Virus record (IMG/VR): IMGVR_UViG_3300042565_000704
Location: 1 to 22,401 of that record
Length of the DNA: 22,401 bases
Direction: 5' to 3' (one strand)
Origin: a virus
Positions within the stretch are counted from its first letter, which is position 1. Each line of letters begins with the position of its first letter. Below, piece after piece: positions 6,334 through 22,401 of this stretch. The position numbers were made by a program, and so were the translations under genes. The notes beneath the pieces were generated by a model that searched no databases, had not been told where the DNA came from, and was given only the letters and a program-made list of their open reading frames with translations.

Positions 6334-7344
6334 CTAGACCACGATCGTGGTGCGCCACGCGATCCGGTCCCGGTCGACGAACGCCACGACCTGCTGGGGT
6401 GGCTCCACCGGAAAGTTGCATTCGGCGCTGAAGGCGCTGTAGCCGACGAGGCTCCCGTTGACGGTGAAGCTCGGGCCGAACGTCGCCTGGTGCCAGTGGC
6501 CCAGCCACAGGTGTGCGAACGGTCTACCGAGCGCCGACTGTCGCTGCTGCTTGCGTGCGTGCAGCCGCATGAGCGGCGGCCAGATGCCACCGATGCCGCC
6601 GCCGCCACGGGTCTGGTCGCCGTGGGTCAGTAGGTGCCGCTGCCCCATGACCTCGAACTCAGCGTCGCTGGCCTCGTCGATCTGCCACGTGATCCGCTTG
6701 TCGTCGGCGGTCAGCCGGGCGACCAAGCCCGCCAGGTGCCAGTCGAGGTTCGAGCGGACCTTCAGGTGCGTCCGCTTGGCCTTCTCCATGCGGCCGTGGT
6801 TGCCGACGACGACCGGCACGTGGACCTTGCCGTAGTGGTCGGCCAGCAGGGTCAAGGCTGCGGCCAGCTGCTCGGACCAGTAGAGCAGCGTGCCGAACAT
6901 CGTGTCCGCTGCTTCCTGCAGGTGCATCACGTCGATCGGCCCGGTCATCATGTCGCCACCCCACAGGACGATGACACCCTGCAGGTCGGCATCCGGCCCC
7001 GAGTCGGCGACGTGGACCAGCTGCTCGGCCCATGACTGCAGCCGGCGGGTGGCGATCGTCCGGTCGTAGGCGTTGACGCCGGCCACGTCCTCGGCGCGCA
7101 CGATCTCGTCGAAGTGCGTGTCACTCAGCATGGCCACGATCACCGCCTGCCTCGGGCCCGGCTTGCGAGGGTTCGGCCACTTCGGCGGCTTCGGGTCCAG
7201 GCGGTCGATGCCCTCGAGCAGTGAGATCCTCGCCAGCGCGTCGTCCAGCGCCGCCTGGGATGCCTTCAGGTCGGCCTTCAGGCGCGCGTTCTGCTGGCGC
7301 AGCAGACTACGCCCCGCCTCCTCGGCGAACTCGTCGAGGTCCAC
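6334..7344 (-). CDS. Metallophosphoesterase with N-terminal coiled coil
   Basis: A 336-residue calcineurin-like metallophosphoesterase. The dimetal motifs are all present and in order: DTH (D75, H77), GGD (D131), GNH (N181, H182), THGDQ (H240) and GHWH (281-284). The substrate cannot be told; members of this superfamily include phosphatases, nucleases such as Mre11/SbcD, and cyclic-nucleotide hydrolases. Residues about 14-44 form a probable coiled coil (LLRQQNARLKADLKASQAAL), followed by a Pro/Lys-rich linker (PKPPKWPNPRKPGPR). The GTG start at 7344 is 1 nt after the preceding small gene. It is the last gene before the terminator hairpin, behind the lysis genes. The linker and coiled coil suggest a partner protein, perhaps the upstream 75-residue product. 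Confidence 0.9.
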   Translation of the reverse strand: MDLDEFAEEAGRSLLRQQNARLKADLKASQAALDDALARISLLEGIDRLDPKPPKWPNPRKPGPRQAVIVAMLSDTHFDEIVRAEDVAGVNAYDRTIATRRLQSWAEQLVHVADSGPDADLQGVIVLWGGDMMTGPIDVMHLQEAADTMFGTLLYWSEQLAAALTLLADHYGKVHVPVVVGNHGRMEKAKRTHLKVRSNLDWHLAGLVARLTADDKRITWQIDEASDAEFEVMGQRHLLTHGDQTRGGGGIGGIWPPLMRLHARKQQRQSALGRPFAHLWLGHWHQATFGPSFTVNGSLVGYSAFSAECNFPVEPPQQVVAFVDRDRIAWRTTIVV

Positions 7345-7345
7345 G

Positions 7346-7573
7346 TCACCGCTTGCTGCTGCGCCGGTAGTGCTCGACCTTGGAGTAGGTGGCGTCCGGG
7401 TAGCCGTTCGCCTGCAGCCACTTCACGATCGTGTGCGTGGCGTGCGGTGAGTCGGTGATGACCTGCCGCAGATCCTCGGGCAGCGTGTACCACCAAGCGG
7501 TGGTGCGACCGGACTTGATCTCCTCAGCGAACGCATCGAGGCTCGCCGCAAGGTCGGCCGGCTTCTTGCTCAT
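7346..7573 (-). CDS. Small protein, possible HTH, unknown function
   Basis: A 75-residue protein starting MSKKPADLAASLDAFAEEIK. The rest (WWYTLPEDLRQVITDSPHA, then THTIVKWLQANGYPDATYS and KVEHYRR) is helical and ends basic. HTIVKWLQANGYPDATYSKV could form a helix-turn-helix, as in small DNA-binding or replication-initiation proteins, but this is weak. The ATG at 7573 overlaps the endolysin stop as ATGA, and its own stop is 1 nt from the metallophosphoesterase start. A partnership with that enzyme is a reasonable idea from the coupling alone. Confidence 0.68.
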   Translation of the reverse strand: MSKKPADLAASLDAFAEEIKSGRTTAWWYTLPEDLRQVITDSPHATHTIVKWLQANGYPDATYSKVEHYRRSSKR

Positions 7574-8581: not shown

Positions 8582-8841
8582 CTGAACCACCTCCGTGGCT
8601 TGTGGTTGTCGAGTCGACTGTGGGCGTGGTCGACGCGGCTCGCGACCGACTCGATCCGATCGCCGAGCTGGTCGACCTTCCGGCCGTGGCCGTCGACCTT
8701 GTCGGCCAGGTTCACCAGCAGACGCTGCGACTCGCCGTGCTGGCTGGCGTTCTCTCGTCGGGTGCGTGAGCTGATCCAGGCCGCTGACACAGATGCCGCC
8801 GCTGCGATCGCTGCCACGAGGACTGGGACGACGTAGTCCAT
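8578..8841 (-). CDS. Membrane-anchored coiled-coil protein of the lysis region
   Basis: An 87-residue protein with an N-terminal membrane span (about residues 3-24, VPVLVAAIAAAASVSAAWIS), a basic stretch (SRTRRENA), and a long heptad-like helix (LLVNLADKVDGHGRKVDQLG then DRIESVASRVDHAHSRLDNH). This resembles small phage membrane proteins annotated as DUF2746-like that sit beside holins. It may act with the holin or as a spanin-like or anchoring element. The ATG at 8841 is 1 nt after the previous stop. Its job is inferred only from location. Confidence 0.78.
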   Translation of the reverse strand: MDYVVPVLVAAIAAAASVSAAWISSRTRRENASQHGESQRLLVNLADKVDGHGRKVDQLGDRIESVASRVDHAHSRLDNHKPRRWFR

Positions 8842-8842
8842 G

Positions 8843-9103
8843 TCACCCGACCCCCCAGGCGGTCGCCTCGTGGACGAGATGCTCGCCGGTCGTGCCGACA
8901 CTGTGCGCGGCGTCGTCGATGTCCAGCACACCCTCGACGACGAGGAGCGTGGCGAGCGCCCCGGTGGCGTCCAGCGGCGGGAACGGCGGTTCTGCTGCCT
9001 CGGCGTCGGCCCGACGCTGCAGGAACGCTTCCGAGGGCTCGACGAGCCTCCAGGCGACGCCGTCCTCCGACACCCACCGTCCGTCGTGGTCGTTGCGTTC
9101 CAT
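8843..9103 (-). CDS. Small acidic protein next to the tail fibre gene
   Basis: An 86-residue acidic protein starting MERNDHDGRWVSEDGVAWRL. A helical middle holds FLQRRADAEAAE, and the C-terminal half is helical (LDATGALATLLVVEGVLDID and GEHLVHEATAW). The ATG at 9103 shares one base with the fibre gene stop (TGATG). No family was recognised. A position right behind the fibre gene is where fibre-assembly chaperones are often found, but no matching motif is visible. Confidence 0.7.
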   Translation of the reverse strand: MERNDHDGRWVSEDGVAWRLVEPSEAFLQRRADAEAAEPPFPPLDATGALATLLVVEGVLDIDDAAHSVGTTGEHLVHEATAWGVG

Positions 9104-10695
9104 CACGCCTCCAGTCCGAGCACCCGGATGCGCGACCCGGCAGCGAGGCTCCCAAGGTTCCCGGCCAGTTCGATCGACGTGACCGCCCCCGTCAGCGTAG
9201 AGAACAGGCCGGTGAACGTCGGGTTGGCTCCGACCGAAAAGTTGGACTGCAGACTCGTACGCAGAACGTATCCGGCCTTCGTGTAGCCGTCGGTGAGCGA
9301 TAGCCGGATGTCGACGTGCTGGTGCCGGTCGGCGTTGGTCAACTGCCCCGGAATCACAGCGGCGGACCAAGATGTCGTCAGCGCCGCCGCGTTCGTGGAG
9401 TAGACCGACGACGAGTCCCCGTTCACCGTCATCAGCAGAGTGTCGATCGTGCCGTTCCGAATCGTGTTCCCTGAGAAGATGACGTGGAGTTGGTCGTAGC
9501 CCGTCACGTTGTACGACACCGACGCCGTGTTCGACGCCAGCAGGTCGTCGGCGATGATCGTCCAGCCCTCCGGCGGACTTGCCCACGTCTGATCGCCACG
9601 CAGGAACGTCGTGCCATCGGCCGTGCCGCTCCCGAGGCGGGCGGTGGCGACCGTTCCGCTGGTGAGCTTCCCGGCGTCGATCGCGTTGGGCACGTCGTTC
9701 GTGCGGCCCGGTCCCAGGACGAGGATCTCGCCGGAGTTCTGGTTTGCCCGGATCACCCGGCCGATGTTCTGGATCAGCTCCGACGTGCCGGTTGGCTTTG
9801 TGATCGTCAACTGGCCCGCCGTCGTCGAGACGTACAGCGGAGCATTGATCGCCAGCCCTTGAGTGTCGACACCCCGGAGCGTCCCGACGACCACGACATA
9901 CCCGAACTCGTTCGGGTCCAGCTCGGACTCGGTGAGGCCGATCGCCGGCATCTTGGCCGAGTCGTCGGCGTCGGCCGGTGCGATCTCGACCGTGGACGTG
10001 TCGCCGACCGTCCCGGTGGCGTACACCGGCGCGCCCTTGGCGATTGTGCTGCCGGAGGTGTTCTTGACCGGGACGTAGACCGGAACATCAGCGGTCCAGC
10101 CCGTGCCGGACAGCAACTCGTAGCCGGTGCGGGTGCCAGTCGTCCACGTCGGGACACCGGATTGCAGCGTGACAGCGTTCCCGTCGGCGATCCCGAGGCC
10201 GTACCAGTCGGGGAGGTCGGTCATGGACCCGATCCGGTTCGTGATCGCCCAGCCCCAGGTGCCGCCGATGTTGACCGAGACAAACGTGATGCCGTTCGTG
10301 CTGGCGACCACGATCGACGCGCCCGCACCGTGGATCGTGTCTGTCCCGGCGGCGCTGATCGTGCAGTCGACCACGCTCACACCGACCGACACCGACCGTC
10401 CGACGTTGTCCTCGGCGTCCGGCAACGTCACCGCAGCGCCAGTCGTCACCAGCAACGACTCGTCGGTGATCCCGTAGGGACTCGTCGTCGTGAACACCGA
10501 GTCGGCCCGCTGGTACTGCTTGTGGTCGTCGTCAGCCAGGCCGGTCAGTTCGCCGTGGTCGGTCACACCGCCACCGCCGGCCGTGGCGTTGACGACCTCG
10601 ACCGTCACCGGCGCACGCACGACCGTCAGGTTCGATTCGGCTTCGGTCCCCTCGAGCGTGACCCGCACGTCCGAGCTGGTCAGCTCGACTGTCAT
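9103..10695 (-). CDS. Tail fibre / receptor-binding protein
   Basis: A 530-residue virion protein with recurrent phage fibre motifs. Residues about 46-61 (DHGELTGLADDDHKQY) are the typical DHG-x-LTGL-x-DDDH repeat found in many fibres. SGTVATARLGSGTADGTTFL followed by RGDQTW is another common fibre motif, here ahead of the C-terminal domain. The rest is Thr/Ser/Gly/Val-rich beta structure, with very few cysteines. The C-terminal about 150 residues, with LHVIFSGNTIRNGTIDTLLM, look like a beta-sandwich tip and may bind the receptor. The ATG at 10695 is 1 nt after the upstream stop. It is the last large tail gene before lysis, as usual for receptor-binding proteins. Confidence 0.85.
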   Translation of the reverse strand: MTVELTSSDVRVTLEGTEAESNLTVVRAPVTVEVVNATAGGGGVTDHGELTGLADDDHKQYQRADSVFTTTSPYGITDESLLVTTGAAVTLPDAEDNVGRSVSVGVSVVDCTISAAGTDTIHGAGASIVVASTNGITFVSVNIGGTWGWAITNRIGSMTDLPDWYGLGIADGNAVTLQSGVPTWTTGTRTGYELLSGTGWTADVPVYVPVKNTSGSTIAKGAPVYATGTVGDTSTVEIAPADADDSAKMPAIGLTESELDPNEFGYVVVVGTLRGVDTQGLAINAPLYVSTTAGQLTITKPTGTSELIQNIGRVIRANQNSGEILVLGPGRTNDVPNAIDAGKLTSGTVATARLGSGTADGTTFLRGDQTWASPPEGWTIIADDLLASNTASVSYNVTGYDQLHVIFSGNTIRNGTIDTLLMTVNGDSSSVYSTNAAALTTSWSAAVIPGQLTNADRHQHVDIRLSLTDGYTKAGYVLRTSLQSNFSVGANPTFTGLFSTLTGAVTSIELAGNLGSLAAGSRIRVLGLEA

Positions 10696-10696
10696 G

Positions 10697-11050
10697 TCAG
10701 AGCGTCCAGTTGCCGACGACGAATGGCCCGCTGCAGAGCGGCACGTCGCTGGTGCCGTCGTTCCACTGCAGACTCCACCAGTAGCGGCCGACCGCCAGCG
10801 TGGCGTCCGCTGCGGCCACGACGATCTTGAACTGTCCCGCTGCGCCGTTCGTGATGGTGCACGTGAAGGTCTTCGAGGCCGTGTCGGTGGCCTCGTCGGC
10901 GGTGATCTCAGCGGTGATCGTGTAGGCGGTGATGTTGATCGCCGTCCCGGCCGAGTCCTTGGCGGTGAACGCCCGAGACCAGGTGCAGTTCTCCCGCACG
11001 TTCCAGGTGACGTATGCGCCGCGGTCGTCGAAGGTCAGGTTGGTCGCCAT
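10697..11050 (-). CDS. Small beta-rich baseplate or tail protein
   Basis: A 117-residue protein starting MATNLTFDDRGAYVTWNVRE. It has alternating hydrophobic/polar strands (ITAYTITAEITADEATDT, FTCTITNGAAGQFKIVVAAA, RYWWSLQWND), similar to BppU-type N-terminal or immunoglobulin-like domains. This suits a small structural tail protein. It lies directly before the fibre gene, so a fibre-attachment or baseplate role is plausible. The ATG at 11050 follows a 30-nt gap with GAGG a short distance upstream. Confidence 0.75.
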   Translation of the reverse strand: MATNLTFDDRGAYVTWNVRENCTWSRAFTAKDSAGTAINITAYTITAEITADEATDTASKTFTCTITNGAAGQFKIVVAAADATLAVGRYWWSLQWNDGTSDVPLCSGPFVVGNWTL

Positions 11051-12630: not shown

Positions 12631-14051
12631 CGGGGCTGATCCTCCTCGAGCTCGGTGAGGTTCGACCCGATCGTGAACGTCGCAGCGTTCGGCTGCGTGA
12701 TCGTGTCCCGCCGCCACACGTCGAGGACCAACCCGGCCGGACGTGCAGCGAACTCGATGGACGTGTCGGCCATCTGGCGCAGCACGTCGGCGTAGGTCTG
12801 GCCGACGCGGAACACGTGCGCCTGGTCGTTCGGCCACGGCTGGCCGGCTGAATCGACCGTGTCCGTGCAGCCGAGCGCCCAGCTGGTGAGCGCACCACGT
12901 GCCTGCGCCTCCTCGAGCAAGGCCCGCAGGATGCGGCCCGGCGTCGGTGCCGGATACACCGTCGGGTAGTCGAGACACTTCCACGACGAACTCGTGCCGA
13001 CCAGCAGGTTGCCCGACGAGTAGACCGCACCGGCACCGCCACCGGAATGCACCGCAACCTGCAGGATGCCTCGTGACACGCCCGGCAGGGTCGGCGTCCA
13101 CGCTCGGGACTCGGCCTCCACAGCGATGTAGTGCGTACCCGAGGACAGGTACGGCGTCGCCCGATGCGCGTAGATGAACGACTCCTCATTGGGTTCCGAG
13201 GTCCAGCCCGGCGTGACCAGCACACCGTCGACCCAGACCCGGCACCTCGAGGACGCCGTGTAGAAGATCGCCACCCGACCGGCGCTGCCCAGACTGAACG
13301 TCGTGCGGAACAGTGACGCACCCTCAGGGTTGCCGCTGTTCGTCGCCCGGCTCCAGATCCAGTCGGTGCCGGTCAGGACCGAGGTCCAACCCTTCGGCGG
13401 GAACCAAGGGTCCGGCAGCGGCGGCACCGTCCGAGTGTTCGGTGCGAGACCCGAGACACCCACGACCGCCGACTGCCAGCCGGTCGTCGACAGTTCAGGC
13501 GAGAACCACCCGAACGCCCGACTGTCCGAGCTCGGCCGAGCGCCGGTACCGCCGTAAGGGAACACGACCGCATCCTCCCAGGCCGAGACGAGACCCCGGC
13601 CGGTCAGAGTGAAGCCACGCGACGACTCCTCGTCAGGCCCGTACCGCCAGCGCTTCTGCTCCACCCGAGATGCGAACGCATACACGCCACCGGTCGACGC
13701 CAGCTGCTGCGGCGTGGCGATCTTGAAGCGCAGCACACCCGGATTGAGCGACGCATTGTCCGACGACGACAGGACCGACACGCTGCCCCGGCCCAGCCCC
13801 GACAGCTCGTCCTGAAAGCTCCGGTCGTACGCCTCGTCCAGGTCCCCAAGGTAGGTGCCGTTGTCGGCCGACCACGCCTCGACGAGCATCTTGGCCGGTG
13901 TGAACGTCGCACTCGGCACCGAGGTCGTGAACCCTTGCGCCTGGGCGACCGACGACAGGGTGTCGAACGTGCGTGTGGTCGCCCCGATCGTAGTCGTGAA
14001 GGCGACAGGACCACCGCCGCCGGCGAGCGTGTCGAAGCTGCTGGTGGGCAC
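12627..14051 (-). CDS. Tail hub protein, N-terminal part with inserted lectin-like domain
   Basis: A 474-residue protein starting at GTG. Residues about 54-105 (MLVEAWSADNGTYLGDLDEA) resemble the N-terminal region of siphovirus Gp37-like hub proteins. The middle (about 175-345) is a different domain: WTSVLTGTDWIWSRA, then FRTTFSLGSAGRVAIFYTAS, CRVWVDGVLV and HYIAVEAES. This is a beta-sandwich resembling galactose-binding or PA14-type carbohydrate-binding folds. The final part (about 365-474) returns to hub-like sequence (GRILRALLEEAQARG, YADVLRQMADTSIEF, FTIGSNLTELEEDQP). The following gene carries the continuation. Confidence 0.8.
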   Translation of the reverse strand: MPTSSFDTLAGGGGPVAFTTTIGATTRTFDTLSSVAQAQGFTTSVPSATFTPAKMLVEAWSADNGTYLGDLDEAYDRSFQDELSGLGRGSVSVLSSSDNASLNPGVLRFKIATPQQLASTGGVYAFASRVEQKRWRYGPDEESSRGFTLTGRGLVSAWEDAVVFPYGGTGARPSSDSRAFGWFSPELSTTGWQSAVVGVSGLAPNTRTVPPLPDPWFPPKGWTSVLTGTDWIWSRATNSGNPEGASLFRTTFSLGSAGRVAIFYTASSRCRVWVDGVLVTPGWTSEPNEESFIYAHRATPYLSSGTHYIAVEAESRAWTPTLPGVSRGILQVAVHSGGGAGAVYSSGNLLVGTSSSWKCLDYPTVYPAPTPGRILRALLEEAQARGALTSWALGCTDTVDSAGQPWPNDQAHVFRVGQTYADVLRQMADTSIEFAARPAGLVLDVWRRDTITQPNAATFTIGSNLTELEEDQPR

Positions 14052-14058
14052 GACAGGC

Positions 14059-14463
14059 TCAGATCGTGAAGATCCCGCTGGCTCCGAAGCTCAGAGTCAG
14101 GTCGCCACCCGAAGGCGTGAAGCTGAACGCACCGCCACCGCTCACCGTGTCGAAGTACGCAATCAGCTTGCTGGTCGACTCAGTGCCGCTGTCCTTGAAC
14201 AGGACCCACGACGTGACCGTGTCGCCGGTCAGCGCCGTGAACGTCACGTCGGCCGCATCGAACGCACCGCCGGTGGTCGTCTTGCTGGCCAGCGCCGAGC
14301 TGGTCGCCACACGCGCCCCGGCGGTGATGTCGTCGAGGTTGTCGTGGGCCGTGTTGTACGTGTAGCCCGAGTCGCACAGGACGATCTTGATCGTGTCGGT
14401 CAGCAGGTCGATGTCAGCATCGAGCAGGGCCTTCTTGGCCAGCGGGTAGACGGCGTTCGCCAT
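14059..14463 (-). CDS. Common small virion structural protein
   Basis: A 134-residue protein starting MANAVYPLAKKALLDADIDL. The pattern DTIKIVLCDSGYTYNTAHDN...AGARVATSSAL...FDAADVTFTALTGDT is one I recognise from many actinobacteriophage and other siphophage tail modules, where it is annotated as a structural or hypothetical protein. It is beta-rich with GGG/GGD turns and no enzyme motif. The ATG at 14463 has GGAAGGA upstream and lies 1 nt after the previous stop. It may be a baseplate or tail-tip component. Confidence 0.82.
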   Translation of the reverse strand: MANAVYPLAKKALLDADIDLLTDTIKIVLCDSGYTYNTAHDNLDDITAGARVATSSALASKTTTGGAFDAADVTFTALTGDTVTSWVLFKDSGTESTSKLIAYFDTVSGGGAFSFTPSGGDLTLSFGASGIFTI

Positions 14464-14464
14464 G

Positions 14465-14938
14465 TCACTGAATCCTTCCGCTAGGGATGCTGAGCTCGAG
14501 CGTGGCCAGCATCCACCGGCCGTCCTCAGCGTAGCGGCCGACCTCCATGCCAGTGACATGCACCGGCTCGGTCCGGCTCGTCCCGTCCGGCATCGTCAGC
14601 ACCGCCGACCTGGTGCCATCCGTCGTGCCGGTCGGGGCCACGATGTTGGTGCGCAGGTAGTCGACGTTGATCTGCAGCCGCTCGAAGGCGTCGCCGGTCG
14701 TCGCCCCGGTGTAGGTGATGTCCCCGGCGATGATGATCCGCACGCTGCGCCTCGTCACCGTGTCCCGCCGCTGCTGGGCCAGCACACCCGACGCACCGGG
14801 CACGACGCGGTCACCGCCACGCTGGTCCGCAGGTAGCCACAGCTCGACGAGGTTGAGCACCTTGCACCACGTCGTCGTCAGGCTGATCCCACCGATCGTC
14901 AGGCCGCCGGCCGCAGTGTTCCAGTCGAAGCCCGGCAT
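14465..14938 (-). CDS. Distal-tail-like minor tail protein
   Basis: A 157-residue protein right after the tape measure gene, where the distal tail (Dit) or tail-tip protein is normally found. It begins MPGFDWNTAAGGLTIGG and contains RRSVRIIIAGDITYTGATTG, then AFERLQINVDYLRTNIV and MLATLELSIPSG, which suit a beta-rich ring-forming protein. An ATG (14938) shares one base with the tape measure stop, and a GTG (14941) is also possible. Assignment rests mainly on position and size. Confidence 0.72.
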   Translation of the reverse strand: MPGFDWNTAAGGLTIGGISLTTTWCKVLNLVELWLPADQRGGDRVVPGASGVLAQQRRDTVTRRSVRIIIAGDITYTGATTGDAFERLQINVDYLRTNIVAPTGTTDGTRSAVLTMPDGTSRTEPVHVTGMEVGRYAEDGRWMLATLELSIPSGRIQ

Positions 14939-17334
14939 CACACACCCGCCAGGAACTCGGCGTCACGCTGCCGTCGCACGACCTCGGCAGCGGTCAGGAT
15001 CGGATCGGGCGACGTGATGTTGAAGGTCTGGTTGACCTCGCCGGTCGGCAGCTGATTGTTGGGGATGATCGTGCCCGAGGTCTTGGGCTTGAAGATCTCA
15101 GGACCTTCCTCGCCGACGAGGTAGGACTGGTTGGCTGCAACCGGCCCGCCCTCGGCACGTCGGAACTGCGGCGGGATGAAGAACGCAGGCGGCAGGTTCG
15201 GCATCGGCACCTGCTGCTTCTGTCCAGCCTTGCCAGCGAACACGCCACCGAACAGATTGATCACTGCGTCCGCTGCGATGTCGGCCTGCGACTTCACTGC
15301 GAACAGGCCGCCAGACAGACGACTCAGTCCGTCAAGAACGGGCTGAACATTGGCAGTGATTGAGAGATCAATCGGGGCAGTGTCCTTGAGACCCTGTGCG
15401 GCCAATGCGGCGAAGAAGAACTCGTCCTTGACCTGACCGATTGACGGGGCCAGCTGCGGGTACTTCTCGGCCAGCACGTCCAGCGTCTCGATTGCCGTGC
15501 CGTACTCGATGTTCCCGGCCTCGACCTCGCCACGCAGGGCAGCGATCGTCGACTCCAGCCCGACCGCAGCGCCGACCGCGTCACGCTGTGCGTCGGCTAG
15601 GTCGACGAACTCCTGTGCTGTCGCACCATCGGTGAACAGGGCGATGTATGCCTCGGCCACCTTGGCCTGTGCATCGGCCAGCCCACCGGCAGCGTCGATG
15701 ACTGCGAAGAAGGGATCGGTGTTTGCCTTCAGCACGTCGCTGTACGCCTGGAAGGCGTTCTTGGCCTCGTCGGTCTTGACTGCCAGACCCTCGACCGTGA
15801 ACAGCAGCTCCTGGGCCGGCACGTCAGTCTGCGCCAGCTGTGTCTCGAGGTTGTCCAGTTCGCCACCTGTGACCTGTGCTGCGCCAGCAGCCAATCCGAG
15901 CGACTCCCGGTTGCGGTCGATGAACTCCTGGTTGGCCTTCCATTGACCGCTGTTGCGGTCCAATCCGTCGGTGACGATCTGCAACTGATCCAGCGTCGCA
16001 CTGGCTACTGCCGGGTCCGAACCCTTCAGCTTGTCGAAGGCCGCCTGCGTGTCCTCGACGCTCGAGATGAGTCGATTGTTGCCGAGCTCAATCTGTGTGC
16101 CGTTGTCCGTCACAATCTTGCTCAGACTCAGCACACGATCTTCGGCATTGACAAGACCCGAGAAGGCGTCCAGCACGCCCGGACCAGTCTGCTGAGCGCT
16201 GACGAGTGTTCGGTTGAGCGCATCCTCAAGGTCACCGCTGGCATTGCTGCCAGCATTCAAGGCTTGGAAGATGCCTTCCGAAATGGCGAGTGCTGTGCCG
16301 ATCTTGCCGACGACGATCGCAGCGTTGCCGAGCTTGGTCAGCGATCGGCGCTGCGTCTCGACCCCGTCCACGACCGTCGTGGTCGTCGTCGTGAAGGCGT
16401 CCCGGAACTTGAGCGCCTGACCGGCGACGAGTGACAGCGCACCGACGGCGACGGCCCCGAACGCACCGATGCCGCCGAGCGCAGCCAGCGGACCCTTCAA
16501 GCCCTCGGGCAGCTCGCTGAACTTCGTGATGATGTCGTTGATGCCACCGACGACCGTGGCGAACACAGGCGTCAACTTCTCGCCCAGCTCGGTCTTCAGG
16601 TTCTCGAAGTTGGCCTGGGCGTTCCGGGTCTGATTGGCGAGGCTGTCCTGTGTGCGGATCACGTCGCCTTGGGCCAGCTCGAAGTCCTTGAACAGCTTGC
16701 TGTTGATGGCGACGATCTTCTGCTGGGCCGTCAGGCTGCCGGTCACCTCCTCGCCGGTCAGGGCCAGGTACTCGGCCTTCAGCGCTACATCGGAGATGTC
16801 ACCGCCGAGACGCCGGATCGGCTCGCCCTCGCCTGCGAGACCGGACTGCAGAGCCGCCAAGGCGTCGGCCACCGAGATGTCCCGGAAGGACGAGATGTCG
16901 CCGGCCAGCTGCACGAGGTCGGTCGAGAACTTGACCGCCGCCGTGCCACTCAGACCGGCCTGTCGAGCGAACGTGGCGAACCCGTTGGCCGCCTTGGTCG
17001 CCTCGGTCTTGGAGATGTTGGCCGTGTCGGCTGCCGCCTCGGCGAACTTCTCGAGCTGGGCTGCGCCCTGCTCGCCGAACGTCACCGTGGCGGCAGACAC
17101 CTGCTCGCCGTAGGCACTTGCCGAGTCGGCCAGCGTCTTGAGACCGGCGATGGCGACTGCGCCGCCAGCGATCAGACCAGTCCCGAAACTGGTGAGGCTG
17201 GCGCTGATCTTGTTCAGCTTGTCCTCGGTACGACCCAGCTCCCGGTCAGCAGCAGCGCCGACCTTCTGGAACTCACGGATGGCACCCTGGGCGTTGCCGT
17301 CGACCAGGATCTGCAGTCGCTCGAGGAGTGCCAT
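14938..17334 (-). CDS. Tape measure protein
   Basis: A 798-residue protein that sets tail length and sits inside the tail tube. It starts MALLERLQILVDGNAQGAIR and continues with a long helical and Ala-rich body, with hydrophobic segments near residues 49-68 (FGTGLIAGGAVAIAGLK) and about 285-312 (LGGIGAFGAVAVGALSLVAG) of the type used for membrane insertion. The C-terminus has EEGPEIFKPKTSGTIIPNNQ, a common tape measure ending. By the usual rule of about 0.15 nm per residue the tail would be near 120 nm long; this is an estimate only. No peptidase or lysozyme motif was seen. The start is 1 nt after the frameshift product's stop. Confidence 0.93.
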   Translation of the reverse strand: MALLERLQILVDGNAQGAIREFQKVGAAADRELGRTEDKLNKISASLTSFGTGLIAGGAVAIAGLKTLADSASAYGEQVSAATVTFGEQGAAQLEKFAEAAADTANISKTEATKAANGFATFARQAGLSGTAAVKFSTDLVQLAGDISSFRDISVADALAALQSGLAGEGEPIRRLGGDISDVALKAEYLALTGEEVTGSLTAQQKIVAINSKLFKDFELAQGDVIRTQDSLANQTRNAQANFENLKTELGEKLTPVFATVVGGINDIITKFSELPEGLKGPLAALGGIGAFGAVAVGALSLVAGQALKFRDAFTTTTTTVVDGVETQRRSLTKLGNAAIVVGKIGTALAISEGIFQALNAGSNASGDLEDALNRTLVSAQQTGPGVLDAFSGLVNAEDRVLSLSKIVTDNGTQIELGNNRLISSVEDTQAAFDKLKGSDPAVASATLDQLQIVTDGLDRNSGQWKANQEFIDRNRESLGLAAGAAQVTGGELDNLETQLAQTDVPAQELLFTVEGLAVKTDEAKNAFQAYSDVLKANTDPFFAVIDAAGGLADAQAKVAEAYIALFTDGATAQEFVDLADAQRDAVGAAVGLESTIAALRGEVEAGNIEYGTAIETLDVLAEKYPQLAPSIGQVKDEFFFAALAAQGLKDTAPIDLSITANVQPVLDGLSRLSGGLFAVKSQADIAADAVINLFGGVFAGKAGQKQQVPMPNLPPAFFIPPQFRRAEGGPVAANQSYLVGEEGPEIFKPKTSGTIIPNNQLPTGEVNQTFNITSPDPILTAAEVVRRQRDAEFLAGV

Positions 17335-17335
17335 C

Positions 17336-17742
17336 TCATGTCCCGCTGTCGTTCAGTAGCCGTAGGTCTCGCAGTGTCTGGCGACGGGTCACGTCCGGCG
17401 GCCAGTTGAACCGCTTGGCCATGACGACTACCCAGTCGTCTCCGGGTCGCCCTCCGATTTTGGGACGCCGCCCTCGTACACCTCGGGCAGGTCGTCGTCG
17501 ACCATCTCGAAGATCGGCGGGTCGCCGATCAGTCGCTGTGGTGTCAGCTCCTCCGGGACCGCACCTGCGTGCTCGCAGGCGATGCGGTACACCGTGAGCG
17601 CCCCCTGGGCCGATGCCGCCGGCGCAACGATGACCTCGACCCACCGCTGTCCGGTCTCGGCCTCGATCGTTGCGAACTTGTCCAGTGGCAGGTCCATGAG
17701 CCGGACCTGCCCCTTCGGAGTGTTGACGGCGAACGACCCCAC
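17336..17742 (-). CDS. Tail assembly chaperone fusion made by -1 frameshift (gpGT-type)
   Basis: The long product of the chaperone pair, as in lambda G/GT. Ribosomes read the upstream frame to K95 at the slippery site (17458-17464), slip back one base and continue for 40 more residues (IGGRPGDDWVVV, then MAKRFNWPPDVTRRQTLRDL, then RLLNDSGT) to the stop at 17336-17338. The fusion is about 135 residues. The T-like extension is short and has FNWPPDVTRRQ, similar to other phage second chaperones. It ends 1 nt from the tape measure start. A separate start at the ATG inside the extension cannot be excluded. Confidence 0.82.
17428..17742 (-). CDS. Tail assembly chaperone, short form (gpG-type)
   Basis: A 104-residue protein beginning at GTG (17742): VGSFAVNTPKGQVRLMDLPL. 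It contains EAETGQRWVEVIVAPAAS and ALTVYRIACEHAG, and ends DPETTG at TAG (17428-17430). Position between the major tail protein and the tape measure gene, small acidic composition and the overlapping second frame are typical of phage tail assembly chaperones, which keep the tape measure protein soluble during tail building. Confidence 0.85.
   Translation of the reverse strand: MGSFAVNTPKGQVRLMDLPLDKFATIEAETGQRWVEVIVAPAASAQGALTVYRIACEHAGAVPEELTPQRLIGDPPIFEMVDDDLPEVYEGGVPKSEGDPETTG
17458..17464 (-). promoter_or_regulatory. Programmed -1 frameshift slippery heptamer CCCAAAA
   Basis: On the minus strand the sequence reads GTC CCA AAA in the chaperone frame. The heptamer C CCA AAA has the canonical X XXY YYZ form and the correct phase: the first C is the third base of a codon. 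A slip of one base gives exactly the 40-codon extension that reaches the stop next to the tape measure gene. Confidence 0.85.
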
Positions 17743-17745
17743 CTA

Positions 17746-18159
17746 TCAGGCCTGGACGTAGCCGACGGACGTGGACGCCGCCCAGCTGCCCGACGACTCG
17801 GCCGCACCGCCGACCGTGAGGGTCGTGGTGAGGTCGAAGGTGGCGGTCCCGAACCAGTAGGTCCCGACGTGCGCCGACCCGGCCTGCGGGTACAGGTAAA
17901 ACTTGCGCGGGTTGGAGTCGGCCACGTACCGGGTCAGGGTGCCGTCGGCGTCCCAGAAGCCCGAGAAGTCGCCCTGGGCGTCCTTGAGACCGGCCACGTA
18001 TGCCTTGGTCGTGTCGCCGAAGGACGTGACCTCGGTGCGGTCGGCGGTCTGGTTGACGCTGAACGACGACAGGTTCACGATCGGCTGGGCCGAACCGTTG
18101 GCCGCTGCGCTCGTGTCGACATACAGCCTTCCGTTCCTGCCCGAAATGGGTGCGGCCAA
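17746..18159 (-). CDS. Major tail protein (tail tube)
   Basis: A 137-residue protein with the features of a siphovirus tail tube protein: LYVDTSAAANGSAQPIVNLS, SVNQTADRTEVTSFGDTTKA then YVAGLKDAQGDFSGFWDADG, and a C-terminal beta hairpin TATFDLTTTLTVGG. The VTSFGDTTKAYVAGLKD/GDFSG pattern is characteristic of this family. The only usable start in the open frame is TTG at 18159, with AGGAG 7 nt upstream and the CgeB-like stop just before it in frame. A TTG start is unexpected for one of the most abundant virion proteins. It lies between a glycosyltransferase gene and the tail chaperone genes. Confidence 0.88.
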   Translation of the reverse strand: MAAPISGRNGRLYVDTSAAANGSAQPIVNLSSFSVNQTADRTEVTSFGDTTKAYVAGLKDAQGDFSGFWDADGTLTRYVADSNPRKFYLYPQAGSAHVGTYWFGTATFDLTTTLTVGGAAESSGSWAASTSVGYVQA

Positions 18160-18174
18160 TGGTCTGCTCCTGGC

Positions 18175-19194
18175 TCAGAGTCCGATTGCCTGTAGTAGCT
18201 GCCGGACATTGTTCGGGAAAGTGCGATCCTCGACAGCAGCCCAGGCTCGCTCCACTGCCATCATACGCCTGTCTGGGTTGGCGATGGCCCATCGCAGCTG
18301 TTCGCCCAGCTCCTGCGGGTTGCTGAACGTCGGCAGCATCGGGAACACCTCGTCCGACTCGGGCCGGGACTGGCGTGCGAACCACAGCCCACAGCGGGCC
18401 ATCTCCACCTCACGTGGCCCCATCGCCCACCCGTCGGCCGTGTCGGACAGCTGGCCGTTCGTCTCGGTTCTGTAGATGTTGAAGCTCGCCAGACTGCCCC
18501 GGTAGACCTCGGCGGTCACGTCGTTGTCAACGCAGTCCTCGGGGTCATGGCCGACGAACTGCAGCAGGCACTCGGGTGCGTCCTTGAAGTTGCCGCCGAA
18601 GCTCACGTCCAGGCCCGTCCAGTCGACCTGCTCGAGGAACCGGGCCCGGCTCGGGTAGCACGTCCCGATCCACGACACGTCCGCATGGTGCGGGGCCGGT
18701 GCCCGGTAGTGGACCTGCGGGTCGTAGGCGTGCGGTGCGTACAGCGCCGGGCCGTCACATGCCTCGCTGAAGGCGTCCAGGTTCGTCGGGTCGTTCACCA
18801 CGACGGCGTCGTACCACGCAGCCTTGGCCAGCTGCGTCTCGTCCTCGTAGGGCGACTCAGTGCACAGCAGTACCACGTGCCGGTGCCGGGCACGCATGAT
18901 CTCGACGAGCTGCGGGTACATGAAGAACCCGGAGACGACCAGCACGATGTCCGGCCACCAGTCGTAGCACGCCGCCTTGATCTGGCCGGCGGCCAGCTGG
19001 ATCGCTTCCTGCTCCTCGTGCGCCTTCACGATCTGACCGTCCCGGTCGGTGTAGGCGTAGCTGAAGTAGTCCAGCAGCTTGTCCAGCTCGAACGTCCGCA
19101 CGTCCACGCCCAGCTCGGCCAGCCCCTTGGCCCAGCCCCGTGCCACGTCGGCCACGCTGAAGTTCGGGCCGGGATTGACGACCAGCGCCCTCAC
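18175..19194 (-). CDS. CgeB-like glycosyltransferase
   Basis: A 339-residue protein with the layout of GT-B type CgeB-like glycosyltransferases. The N-terminal Rossmann domain starts VRALVVNPGPNFSVADVARG and includes PDIVLVVSGFFMYPQLVEIM and VVLLCTESPYEDE. The C-terminal domain has ADVSWIGTCYPSRARFLE, then FNIYRTETNGQL and GPREVEMARCGLWFARQ, the pattern for the nucleotide-sugar-binding end of the Glyco_trans_1_2 group. The GTG at 19194 overlaps the gp10-like stop as GTGA. Its place inside the tail joining genes, just before the tail tube gene, suggests a virion protein as its acceptor, but a host or DNA target cannot be excluded. Confidence 0.82.
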   Translation of the reverse strand: MRALVVNPGPNFSVADVARGWAKGLAELGVDVRTFELDKLLDYFSYAYTDRDGQIVKAHEEQEAIQLAAGQIKAACYDWWPDIVLVVSGFFMYPQLVEIMRARHRHVVLLCTESPYEDETQLAKAAWYDAVVVNDPTNLDAFSEACDGPALYAPHAYDPQVHYRAPAPHHADVSWIGTCYPSRARFLEQVDWTGLDVSFGGNFKDAPECLLQFVGHDPEDCVDNDVTAEVYRGSLASFNIYRTETNGQLSDTADGWAMGPREVEMARCGLWFARQSRPESDEVFPMLPTFSNPQELGEQLRWAIANPDRRMMAVERAWAAVEDRTFPNNVRQLLQAIGL

Positions 19195-19763
19195 AGGAAC
19201 GTCTCGGCCAACGATCTTGCGTGCACAGCCCGGAACGTCCGCATCGCTCCGGGTGTCGCCGCATTGATGCCCCGTGACCACGTTCGCTTGGCCGGGGTAC
19301 CGGGGTGCATGACCCCGAAGCGAGCGCTGCCGTCGGGCAGGGCGAGGGCGATCGGCCGGGTCAGACGTTGGCTACCAGCCACGGTCTTGGTCGCACGGGC
19401 ACCACGCTTGATGTAGCCCTTGCCTCGAGCGATCTTCGGCCGGATGAAGTGCGGACGTGCGCCAGACTCGAGCACCCGCCACGGCCCCATCGGTCGGGCC
19501 TTCAACAGCGCCACGGCGTTCGTGTAGCCACGCACGTCGTAGCCCGCCGACACCTTGAGCGGCTTGTAGGTCTGCGTGCGCCAGTTCCAACGCCAGCGAC
19601 TGATCCGCTGGTCCTGGCCCACGTCCTGCTTGGCAGCCTTGATGACGCCTTCCTTGTAGACCTTGGCCGCCTCGGTCACCGCCTTGCGGTTGGCGTTGCC
19701 AAGGCCGAATGCGTAGTTCTCGATCTTGGCGACGAGCTGGGCGGTGTTGACCGACGTACCCAC
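19191..19763 (-). CDS. HK97 gp10-like tail completion protein
   Basis: A 190-residue protein starting at GTG (VGTSVNTAQLVAKIENYAFG). It carries the C-terminal signature ARFGVMHPGTPAKRTW, close to the family's HPGT-x-x-x-x-F/W motif of HK97 gp10-type proteins, which join head and tail or complete the tail. The middle is basic (RPKIARGKGYIKRGARATK). The start shares one base with the previous stop (TAGTG). Gene order with the adaptor and tail-terminator-like gene supports the call. Confidence 0.85.
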   Translation of the reverse strand: MGTSVNTAQLVAKIENYAFGLGNANRKAVTEAAKVYKEGVIKAAKQDVGQDQRISRWRWNWRTQTYKPLKVSAGYDVRGYTNAVALLKARPMGPWRVLESGARPHFIRPKIARGKGYIKRGARATKTVAGSQRLTRPIALALPDGSARFGVMHPGTPAKRTWSRGINAATPGAMRTFRAVHARSLAETFL

Positions 19764-20167
19764 TAGAGCATCACCGACAGGGTCGCCGAGGCTGCGTAGT
19801 AGCCGATCTCAGCCACGACCAGCTCCCGGTAGTCACCCGCCTGCTGGACGCTGCAGAAACCCACGAGACCGTCGAGCGTCGGGTCGTCCCCGAAGATCTG
19901 CCAGATGGACTGCGTGCCCGACGGTGACAGCAGCTCGTCGAGCACCTCGACCTGGTCGACGTGGCGGCGGGACACCATGAACTGCACCTCGGCAGCGACC
20001 CGCAGGGACTGATCGCCGAACGTCCCGGTGTCCACATTGAACCCACCGATGGCAATGGCGGGCGGGTCGATGTTGTCGGGTGGCAGCTGGTAGACGTTCC
20101 AGCCGGGCAGGGCGTCCTGCAGGGTGCGGGCCACGCCGGTGCGGAGGTCGTGCAGGCTCGCAGGCAT
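19763..20167 (-). CDS. Tail-terminator-like protein
   Basis: A 134-residue protein starting MPASLHDLRTGVARTLQDAL, then GWNVYQLPPDNIDPPAIAIG. The pattern V...PPAIAIG...L...VQFMVSR...VLDELLSPSGTQSIWQIF...DPTLDGLVG reads as a tail terminator or head-closure protein, closing the proximal end of the tail. ATG at 20167 shares one base with the adaptor stop (TGATG). Distinguishing terminator from head-closure protein needs a structural search; the adaptor, this and the gp10-like gene are the only three joining genes visible. Confidence 0.72.
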   Translation of the reverse strand: MPASLHDLRTGVARTLQDALPGWNVYQLPPDNIDPPAIAIGGFNVDTGTFGDQSLRVAAEVQFMVSRRHVDQVEVLDELLSPSGTQSIWQIFGDDPTLDGLVGFCSVQQAGDYRELVVAEIGYYAASATLSVML

Positions 20168-20796
20168 CACGCCAGCCCGACGTTCAGCGGATGCCGGAAC
20201 GGCTGCAGGAGCTGCTGGGCACGAGCGGGCAGCTGGCGGCCCAGGCGCACGACCCCGAACTCCCCGAAGCCCGCCACGCCCATCGGGGCGTCGGCCAGCT
20301 TGTAGAGCTCGGCGGCGAGGATGCGTGTCGCCTGCTTGACCTCGGGCGGGACCGCCGGCCAGCCCCAGGTGCCCGTCAGGCGCACGAGGCCGACCCTGCC
20401 GAGTGCCGTGGGTGCGTAGGGCAGGACGACCGTCGACAGCACTCGGACCTGCGTGTAGGGCCATGTGGCCGGAGCCTGACCCTGCTGGGGTCCGATCAGC
20501 TGGTAGCCGGTCGCCGTGATCGTCGACTCGTAGGTCCCGTCGTCGTTGTTGTCGTAGGCGAACGTCGTCAGCGACACGAGGTCATTGAACGGCCCGAGCG
20601 TGATGGTGTAGCCGTCCGGGTCCACGTCGAACTCACGGGCCTCGGCGGTCGCCTGGTAGAAGTGCCGCCCGCAGTAGCGGTCGACCATCCGGGACGCAGC
20701 GGTGAGCACGTCGTCCAGGTCGGCGGTGTCGACAGCGCCGGAGACCCCGACGTAGCTGCGCAGCTCCTCGAGCGTCAGGTATGCGTTCGTGGCCAT
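20167..20796 (-). CDS. Head-tail adaptor protein (gp6-like)
   Basis: A 209-residue protein starting MATNAYLTLEELRSYVGVSG, then DLDDVLTAASRMVDRYCGRH. The helical N-terminus with TLEELRSY...L...ASRMVDRYCGRHFY is the common head-tail connector/adaptor form. It docks on the portal ring. The middle is beta-rich (LGPFNDLVSLTTFAYDN) and the C-terminal part helical (PPEVKQATRILAAELYKLAD). The ATG overlaps the GT-A gene end by 22 nt. The portal and capsid genes are presumably further right, outside the window. Confidence 0.88.
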   Translation of the reverse strand: MATNAYLTLEELRSYVGVSGAVDTADLDDVLTAASRMVDRYCGRHFYQATAEAREFDVDPDGYTITLGPFNDLVSLTTFAYDNNDDGTYESTITATGYQLIGPQQGQAPATWPYTQVRVLSTVVLPYAPTALGRVGLVRLTGTWGWPAVPPEVKQATRILAAELYKLADAPMGVAGFGEFGVVRLGRQLPARAQQLLQPFRHPLNVGLA

Positions 20797-21323
20797 CGGT
20801 GCTGCTCCGGTCTGACGATGTAGGCGATCTGCTGGGCCATCACGACGATGCGTTTCCGGTCCACGAACCGCCTGACGTACTCGTAGTCCTCGATGCTGGC
20901 GCAGCGTGGCGGCCCCGGCAGCATCGGTTCCTGTAGGGCCAGTCTACGCTTGACCGTGAAGGAGATACCCACGTTGCCGTGCACGATCGGGTCGCTGCCC
21001 GGCCTCGGGATCGGCCCCAGCTCCGGGTGCCACATCGGGTGCAGGACCATGTCGACCGCCGGGTGCGGGATCAGGTTGGCCCCGTACACGTCCGGGATCA
21101 GCACGTCGTCGTCGTCTAGGAACCCGACCCACTCGCAGCTGGCAGCCTCCACGCCAGCGTTGCGGGCCAGACCGGGTGCCCCCACGTCCACGTGCACCGT
21201 CGCCCCGACGTGTGGCGCACCGTCGGCCACCACGATCACTTCGTCCGCACAGGCCGCAGCGGATGCAATCGCCCGCTCCAGGGTCTCCCGGCCGGTCGTC
21301 GGGATCACGATCGACAGCCTCAT
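20775..21323 (-). CDS. GT-A glycosyltransferase (GT2-like)
   Basis: A 182-residue protein starting MRLSIVIPTTGRETLERAIA, the usual GT2 opening. It has VIVVADGAPH, then GLARNAGVEAA and FLDDDDVL with the DDDD at 70-73, the metal-binding motif that holds the nucleotide-sugar. The protein is short for the family, with SIEDYEYVRRF near the C-terminus as the acidic part of the active site. The ATG at 21323 overlaps the previous stop as ATGA and seven codons of the open frame lie before it. It sits immediately before the adaptor gene. Confidence 0.9.
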   Translation of the reverse strand: MRLSIVIPTTGRETLERAIASAAACADEVIVVADGAPHVGATVHVDVGAPGLARNAGVEAASCEWVGFLDDDDVLIPDVYGANLIPHPAVDMVLHPMWHPELGPIPRPGSDPIVHGNVGISFTVKRRLALQEPMLPGPPRCASIEDYEYVRRFVDRKRIVVMAQQIAYIVRPEQHRWPRTHT

Positions 21324-22153
21324 CCGAGCACCGGGCTGCGCCACCAGAATACCGCAGGCAGCAGGGCCAGCGGCAGCCAGCGCTCAGGGATCACGCCACA
21401 GGCCACCAGAGCCACCACAGGCGCTGCAGGCGGCTGGTAGACCCTGACCGTGTCGGTGGCCACCAGCAGGGCTGCGTAGCCGACTGCGAGCGCCGCCAGC
21501 AGCTGCCAGCTCGGCTCGAGCAGTGCGACCAGGCCCACCGACCACGGTGCCGCCATGAGCCAGAAGTTGCGCCAGCCACCGGCCTGCCTGCGGTGCTCGA
21601 ACGCTGAGCGGACCGGATGATCGTGGACCCGGCGCAGCAGCGGCGTGGCCGTGATGGCGTCGATGACCGGACGGCGCAGCAGGTAGGCCACGCCAGCGAG
21701 CGGCAGCACGACCAGCGGCAGCCACGACCAGGCCCACAGGGCGATCCAGATGGGCGACTGTTCCTTGATCGTGACCGCCCATACAGCGAACACGATCCCC
21801 AGCACCGGCTGATCCCACACGAAACAGGCGGCCGAGACCGCCGACATGGCCATCGCCGGCAGGTCGACCCCGACCGGCCAGGTCGACTGGGGCTGCAGGA
21901 CCCCCGGCAGTGCCACCACGAGCACCGCCGTGGCCAGCGCCACCGGCCACGATGCGCCCAACCCACGCGCCCACAGCACCAGCGAACCGGCGAGCACCGG
22001 CCAAGACAGACCCCACACCACCCACCATGCCGCAACATCGGTGCCGCACACTGCGGGCAGGAGCCATCGCAGATTGAACGGAAACGCCACCCGCTTGCCC
22101 TCGGCCGCCAGCAGGTACCGCCCGGCGTCAGGACCGGGCCGGAACTGGATCAC
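21320..22153 (-). CDS. Multi-pass membrane protein, possibly GT-C-like
   Basis: A 277-residue protein starting at GTG (VIQFRPGPDAGRYLLAAEGK) that overlaps the upstream glycosyltransferase stop as GTGA. About eight or nine hydrophobic segments can be seen, among them WVVWGLSWPVLAGSLVLWA, VALATAVLVVALPGVL, MAMSAVSAACFVW and WLPLVVLPLAGVAYLL. A KEQSPIW loop and an FNLRWLLP motif near the first segment resemble membrane (GT-C) glycosyltransferases, but this is weak. Its neighbours on both sides are glycosyltransferases, so a role with lipid-linked sugars at the host membrane is a reasonable inference. It has no holin-like features. Confidence 0.75.
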   Translation of the reverse strand: MIQFRPGPDAGRYLLAAEGKRVAFPFNLRWLLPAVCGTDVAAWWVVWGLSWPVLAGSLVLWARGLGASWPVALATAVLVVALPGVLQPQSTWPVGVDLPAMAMSAVSAACFVWDQPVLGIVFAVWAVTIKEQSPIWIALWAWSWLPLVVLPLAGVAYLLRRPVIDAITATPLLRRVHDHPVRSAFEHRRQAGGWRNFWLMAAPWSVGLVALLEPSWQLLAALAVGYAALLVATDTVRVYQPPAAPVVALVACGVIPERWLPLALLPAVFWWRSPVLG

Positions 22154-22401
22154 CCTGCCGTGTCCCGCTTGGCGCTGCCGTCGCCCATGAAGTAGTCGGG
22201 CGGCACCGGCTGCTTGCGTGCGTCCTCGGGCCACCACACCTTCGGCCCCTTGTGGTGCCCCACGTGCATGGTCGTGTCCACGTGCACGGTCCAGCCGGCG
22301 TCACGGGCACGCAGGCAGAAGGACACGTCCTCGCCCAGCTCCCACTCGCCCGCAGGGGTCGTGAACTGGTCGTAGCCGAACCACGAATGGATCGACCCGC
22401 C
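22150..22401 (-). CDS. Glycosyltransferase, C-terminal part (5' end outside window)
   Basis: About 83 residues of a longer protein are present, open from the window edge to TGA at 22150-22152. They read GGSIHSWFGYDQFT, then GEWELGEDVSFCLRARDAGW, then TVHVDTTMHVGHHKGP. GEDVSFCLRARDAGW...VDT...VGH is the well-known C-terminal part of GT2-like GT-A enzymes, with the ED pair of the catalytic base and the His that follows in the metal site. The end overlaps the membrane protein gene start as GTGA. Confidence 0.88.
   Translation of the reverse strand, partial: GGSIHSWFGYDQFTTPAGEWELGEDVSFCLRARDAGWTVHVDTTMHVGHHKGPKVWWPEDARKQPVPPDYFMGDGSAKRDTAG

Follow-up and report, generated by a model that had tools for sequence, protein, structure and literature searches.

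The window analyzed here is the 22,401-bp IMG/VR virus fragment IMGVR_UViG_3300042565_000704 (positions 1-22,401). Its minus strand carries what appears to be a late, translationally coupled glycosylation cassette within a siphovirus-type head-tail operon. The cassette comprises three soluble glycosyltransferases (GTs), denoted GT2, GT-A, and GTB, and a multi-pass membrane protein denoted MEM. In the preferred reading, to which a probability of about 0.5 is assigned, GT2 and GTB modify the capsid and the tail tube, respectively, and MEM acts on a glycan of the host envelope. A probable split of the cassette along these lines follows from the linkage of GT2 and GTB to the capsid and tail-tube genes, a linkage that MEM does not show. 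Glycosylation of the virion is the most likely role of the three soluble enzymes, with GT2 and GTB acting on capsid and tail tube. MEM probably uses a lipid-linked sugar at the membrane, as suggested by its modeled structure, and host envelope glycans are a more likely target for it than virions. The soluble GTs are a new instance of known virion glycosylation in an orderly layout, and MEM is the new part.

Identification of the Cassette Genes

The gene order on the minus strand is GT2 (cut by the contig end), MEM, GT-A, head-tail adaptor, tail terminator, a gp10-like gene, GTB, major tail protein, chaperone, and tape measure. GTGA overlaps are read from the sequence at GT2/MEM and at gp10/GTB, an ATGA overlap is read at MEM/GT-A, and GT-A overlaps the adaptor gene by 22 nt. 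An earlier note on this DNA had described a GT2-like fragment, a GT-A enzyme, a CgeB-like GT-B enzyme, and a membrane protein in the virion operon, coupled to structural genes by GTGA and ATGA overlaps. The gene order, the Pfam and PHROG matches, and the overlaps themselves agree with that description.

GT2 (22150-22401, minus strand) is the C-terminal part of a GT2-family glycosyltransferase whose 5' end lies past the end of the contig. The fragment matches PHROG 1574 (3.6e-8) and scores 16 bits against the GT2 Pfam model, below the 27-bit cut-off. The full-length protein of the relatives, of approximately 270 amino acids (aa), matches PHROG 1574 at 9e-18, and the orthologue from locus L003 matches PF13641 (Glyco_tranf_2_3) at 1.3e-9 with 38.9 bits versus the cut-off of 27. 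Residues D103 and D105 (DxD) and E213 and D214 (ED) are all invariant in the GT2 alignment (A4). GT-A (20775-21323, minus strand) is a compact GT2-family glycosyltransferase of 182 aa that matches PF00535 (1.6e-9; 38.3 bits, cut-off 23.3) and PHROG 14775 (1e-7) and contains LDDDD and IED motifs. GTB (18175-19194, minus strand) is a CgeB-like GT-B glycosyltransferase of 339 aa that matches PF13524 (4.2e-8; 33.7 bits, cut-off 25); the L012 orthologue scores 42.7 bits. A weak match of GTB to Csx21 in a defense-family scan was taken as chance. The proposed acceptor of GTB is the major tail (tube) protein (17746-18159, minus strand; phrog_10528, 2.7e-9). MEM (21320-22153, minus strand) is a multi-pass membrane protein of 277 aa.

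Conservation of Gene Order in Related Loci

Scans with MEM and GTB provided loci L002-L024, and a search with the MEM alignment returned at least 123 relatives, the best 80 of 123 being taken as loci. Open reading frames were labeled using iterated profiles, and gene orders were then counted across the IMG/VR loci. The order capsid-GT2-MEM appears in 73 of 74 loci and the order gp10-GTB-tail tube in 38 of 38, with GTB directly upstream of the major tail gene. In the relatives GT2 directly follows the major capsid gene, which in the window would lie beyond the cut end, and terminase, portal, and protease genes are located upstream of the capsid gene. MEM occurs together with GT2 in 74 of the 76 capsid-containing loci, and the record of one of the other two has GT2 further on. 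The ratio of nonsynonymous to synonymous substitution rates (dN/dS), window versus relatives, is 0.09-0.28 for GT2, MEM, GT-A, and GTB, like that of the neighboring structural genes. The layout is no chance assembly, because the order recurs in approximately 80 related IMG/VR loci and dN/dS is within this range.

The presence of GTB follows the tail module. Both MEM and the tape measure gene are contained in 45 loci, which divide into 36 with the tail-tube family and GTB, one with the tail-tube family and no GTB, and eight with another tail module; GTB is found in 36/37 MEM loci with the same tail-tube family and in 0/8 with the other module. GT-A is confined to about 23 closer loci. The exception to the capsid-GT2-MEM order is L083, where MEM is beside the terminase gene; GT2 is still behind the capsid gene and just ahead of the adaptor gene. 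Where the L073 record continues, GT2 is likewise immediately upstream of the adaptor gene.

Variations on this arrangement were also observed. In L067, L073, L074, L081, and L083, MEM and a homologue of the window gene at 10697-11050 follow the terminase rather than the capsid gene, and the relocated MEM is ahead of the portal gene where the contig extends that far. Locus L080 has a second GT2 after MEM (8816-9520) and lacks GTB despite having the tail-tube family. A small methyltransferase of family PF13578, possibly a sugar O-methyltransferase, is located between GT2 and MEM in six loci (L003, at 6953-7441, L004, L009, L015, L029, and L076) and is absent from the window itself.

The conserved placement bears on whether the GTs decorate phage DNA bases as a protection against restriction. 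DNA hypermodification by virus-encoded GTs has been reported (Pyle et al. 2024, as cited in PMC12619734), but the GTs adjoin capsid and tail genes in the relatives, and DNA decoration leaves no place for MEM. Moreover, the 31 proteins called in the remainder of the closest large relative gave no match at E ≤ 1e-5 to a base-hydroxylating, hydroxymethylating, or TET-like Pfam family. DNA decoration is considered highly improbable. The earlier note had listed findings that would refute its own reading of the cassette, namely, membership of the proteins in DNA- or nucleotide-modifying families, or virion proteins that show no sugar in combination with homologous loci in which these genes lie away from structural genes. 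A partial check of the first, over the same 31 proteins, gave no DNA- or base-modifying sugar pathway, and in the homologous loci the GT and MEM genes are not placed apart from the structural genes.

Co-variation of Protein Identities

Pairwise protein identities were compared over 21 non-redundant loci, the locus pairs of which are not independent. The correlation of identities is 0.90 for GT2-capsid versus 0.45 for GT2-MEM (bootstrap 95% interval of the difference, 0.17-0.72) and 0.90 for GTB-tail tube versus 0.73 for GTB-gp10 (0.01-0.36). Capsid, GT2, GTB, and tail tube inter-correlate at 0.79-0.90 across the intervening block, and the identity of MEM tracks mainly that of the adaptor (0.72). 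After removal of the portal, adaptor, terminator, and chaperone contributions, the partial correlations are 0.62 for GT2-capsid and 0.52 for GTB-tail tube; those of MEM with GT2, capsid, GTB, and tail tube range from -0.07 to -0.26. The earlier note was too pessimistic in stating that nothing decides between virion and host-surface targets, since GT2 and GTB are tied to capsid and tail tube in both position and divergence and MEM is not.

Virion glycosylation in actinobacteriophages has been recognized only recently and affects antibody recognition. A layout with one GT per target, GT2 with the capsid and GTB with the tail tube, provides predictions that can be tested gene by gene. The C-termini of the capsid and tail-tube proteins were considered as additional support and were not used; tail-tube proteins that accompany GTB often contain 6-8 Ser/Thr in the last 20 residues, in some lineages and not in others.

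Predicted Structure of MEM

MEM belongs to a family present in at least 123 environmental phage contigs, and searches of Pfam, NCBIfam, and PHROGs gave no matching family. The glycopolymer-formation family NF046093 is reached by a single member, at E 0.011. A search of 396 Actinomycetota genomes with the MEM profile gave a single 16-bit match that was lost on re-search, and none of the 73 matches from a pattern search of genome contigs is a relative. Neither the family nor its place in the virion operon was found in the libraries and literature covered by a limited search. MEM is a widespread, undescribed phage family that has so far been seen only in phages.

The final AlphaFold2 model was obtained from 42 sequences, with a predicted local distance difference test (pLDDT) of 90.2 and a predicted template modeling score (pTM) of 0.89, and replaced a model of pLDDT 64 from 15 close sequences. 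The Foldseek matches in the PDB whose probability exceeds about 0.1 all have the GT-C fold; they include STT3/AglB, ArnT, ALG9, ALG6, ALG3, EmbA/B/C, Pmt4, and PIG-U. MEM may therefore have a GT-C-like fold, a prediction that is in line with the suggestion of the earlier note that the membrane protein may be part of a lipid-linked sugar pathway. The invariant residues include G7, P8, D9, R12, Y13, P25, F26, R29, P33, D97, E131, D165, P180, R195, T233, D234, and R237. In the model, D9, which is invariant in 42/42 members, heads a helix of residues 8-17, and this helix and a second one of residues 31-36 resemble the juxtamembrane helices JM1 and JM2. The catalytic Asp58 of PimE is at the apex of JM1, and an equivalent position is found in ALG6, ArnT, and PglB (PMC12041525). 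By its place in the model, D9 of MEM may be a counterpart of this catalytic Asp.

All MEM members start within a few residues (up to about ten) of the JM1-like motif. Transmembrane helix 1 (TM1) of the GT-C core is consequently missing, and with it the helix that would place the first loop outside the membrane. This feature is relevant to the possibility that all of the enzymes, including MEM, build virion glycans, with the active site of a TM1-less MEM inserted toward the cytoplasm and the lipid-linked sugar taken there. TM1 is found in no member, export of the N-terminal segment would be difficult given its positive charge (mean 5.6 Arg/Lys), and MEM has a fixed position beside the capsid gene and GT2. 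However, the Arg/Lys distribution over all loops, with a difference of only about two charges, favors the usual GT-C orientation in 35 of the 42 members and the opposite one in 2, and co-variation of MEM with capsid, tail tube, or the GTs is lacking. A cytoplasmic, virion-directed MEM is thus judged quite improbable.

The conservation of MEM was also set against a non-enzymatic role, in which MEM would function in exclusion or assembly as a membrane protein with a reused GT-C-like scaffold, in the manner of PIG-U. The small size of 277 aa, the missing TM1, the presence of PIG-U among the structural matches, and the absence of a significant sequence match or Foldseek E-value to enzymes are compatible with such a role. 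The complete or nearly complete invariance of Asp9 and the rest of the motif GPDxxRY...PF..R....P across 42 members with identities as low as about 45%, the equal conservation of E131 and of the ATDxxR motif, and the occurrence of MEM with GT2 in nearly all capsid-containing loci argue for an enzyme, and a non-enzymatic MEM is regarded as rather unlikely.

Proposed Function of the Cassette

In the preferred reading, the soluble, cytoplasmic GT2 would glycosylate the major capsid protein and GTB the major tail protein during their synthesis, using host nucleotide-sugars. Folding and assembly of virion proteins take place in the cytoplasm, where they would encounter the soluble GT2 and GTB, and the coupling of each gene to its neighbor would suit modification ahead of assembly. 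Extension or variation of the glycan in some lineages is the probable role of GT-A, and the optional methyltransferase may cap it. MEM would use a polyprenyl-phosphate sugar of the host as donor and a glycan of the host envelope, not the virion, as acceptor, for instance to alter the receptors at a late stage of infection. GT-C enzymes use lipid-phosphate sugars and face outward in bacteria, as established for PimE and ArnT, and for this reason glycans of the host envelope would be the more natural target of MEM. The 31 proteins called in the remainder of the closest large relative include no match to a flippase, lipid-sugar synthase, or base-modification family, and the sugar donors would therefore come from the host.

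The proximity of GT2 and MEM would also be explained if all four enzymes acted on a single host-surface glycan. GT2 would make or extend a lipid-linked sugar, MEM would transfer it outside in a gtr-like manner, and the place in the operon would reflect late timing. The nearly constant capsid-GT2-MEM order and the resemblance of MEM to GT-C enzymes, which use lipid-linked donors, are consistent with this scheme, and phage gtrA-gtrB-gtr(type) cassettes exist. It is nevertheless considered unlikely. Neither a flippase nor a lipid-sugar synthase was matched in Pfam for the 31 called proteins, and the 25 top-ranking families for 60 proteins of two relatives do not include one either. On inspection of alignment A4, no pair of membrane helices of the GtrB type is seen at the C-terminus of GT2, and the divergence of GT2 and GTB tracks capsid and tail tube rather than MEM.

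Several results weigh against the assignment of GT2 and GTB to the virion and of MEM to the host envelope. The correlations of GT2-portal (0.88) and GTB-chaperone (0.87) are nearly equal to those with the proposed targets; linkage within the head and tail modules could yield much of the co-variation signal, because inheritance of whole modules would produce such values. The MEM and GT2 genes are neighbors in nearly all loci and might belong to one pathway. Comparison of MEM with bacterial GT87/NF046093 proteins by hhalign was not significant and little better than with reversed profiles, and no Foldseek match in the PDB reached E ≤ 0.001 (best, 0.17). PIG-U shows that a GT-C fold can be non-catalytic. 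Finally, MEM was not found in any prophage, which leaves a benefit through lysogeny unsupported.

A proposal judged less likely than not is that MEM founds a phage-only, minimal GT-C class that has lost TM1, either inverted and supplying virion proteins with lipid-linked sugars at the cytoplasmic face or acting as a late modifier of the host envelope whose gene lies in the virion operon. If MEM is a GT-C enzyme without TM1, it bears on the minimal size of GT-C enzymes and on the remodeling of the host envelope by phages from a late gene.

Comparison with Known Systems

Glycans are present on capsid and tail-tube C-termini of mycobacteriophage virions, and their synthesis is attributed to phage GTs (Freeman et al. 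2023, as cited in PMC12619734 and PMC11600133). The cassette resembles that system, for example in the cluster O phages FoulBall and Schuy, in that the GTs are encoded by actinobacterial phages, the reported targets are capsid and tail tube, and an O-methyltransferase gene accompanies the cluster O GTs. The layouts differ. As described in PMC12619734, PMC11600133, and PMC11256854, the GTs of an F1 phage are near the 3' end of the genome, and cluster O has three tandem GT genes after the methyltransferase. In the present cassette, GT2 adjoins the capsid gene, GTB adjoins the tail-tube gene, and the block also includes a GT-C-like membrane protein.

The gtrABC cassettes of P22, SfV, and their relatives are also phage-encoded and have a GT2 beside a multi-pass membrane glycosyltransferase. 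These cassettes are usually located near the attachment site, whereas the cassette of the window is in the virion operon. In addition, its GT2 lacks the GtrB membrane tail, and a GtrA flippase family is missing among the proteins called for the closest large relative.

The predicted fold of MEM resembles that of GT-C_A enzymes (PimE, ArnT, ALG6, STT3), with an Asp-headed juxtamembrane-like helix and a second short helix followed by transmembrane helices. MEM differs in its length of 277 aa, the missing TM1, the absence of a sequence-level match, and its occurrence so far in phages only.

The nearest named relative of MEM is a hypothetical protein of Caudovirales GX15bay (MK557849, CDS 182-1045), which is 36% identical over 232 aa (E 3e-3, single member query) and is matched by the profile at E 1.4e-42. 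By inspection, its longer N-terminus is not membrane-spanning, and no TM1 is evident. GX15bay resembles the window in having a MEM homologue in a GT-rich genome and differs in that its virion operon is arranged otherwise and the homologue occupies the left end of the record. Positions 13126-18249 of MK557849 hold a series of genes for GTs and for rhamnosyl-, galactosyl-, and methyltransferases.

Source of the Window and Probable Host

A DNA search of INPHARED with the window gave no match for this uncultured phage, and no isolated member of its group was identified. The window contains WhiB-like, RecE/RecT, endolysin, and tail genes, on the basis of which it is a probable actinobacterial siphovirus. 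The very close relative L087 is a contig binned in an Actinomycetota metagenome-assembled genome (MAG); its capsid protein is 96% identical to that of L003 and is followed by GT2 and the methyltransferase. A second close-relative contig, L088, is binned in a Rhodobacteraceae MAG, and binning alone does not settle the host because of this disagreement. A Haloechinothrix alba locus (L089) was rejected as a relative; it has a distant capsid gene only, without a GT or MEM. ARAGORN reports a tRNA-Ala at 1343-1427 on the plus strand, opposite the RecE-like gene at 1254-2261, which is probably spurious.

Neighboring Genes

The head-tail adaptor (20167-20796, minus strand) matches phrog_442 at 6e-28, and the tail terminator (19763-20170, minus strand) matches phrog_17840 at 2.2e-14. 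The gp10-like head-tail or tail completion gene (19191-19763, minus strand) is named by position only and is conserved in 38 loci; it gave no family match in the Pfam and PHROG searches. The region 17000-22401 gave no promoter-like site, and its number of terminator-like sites, one, is the same as in shuffled sequences. In L003, a 46-aa hydrophobic protein is encoded at 1788-1928 between the terminase and portal genes; it is also present in L087, and a similar one is found in L012.

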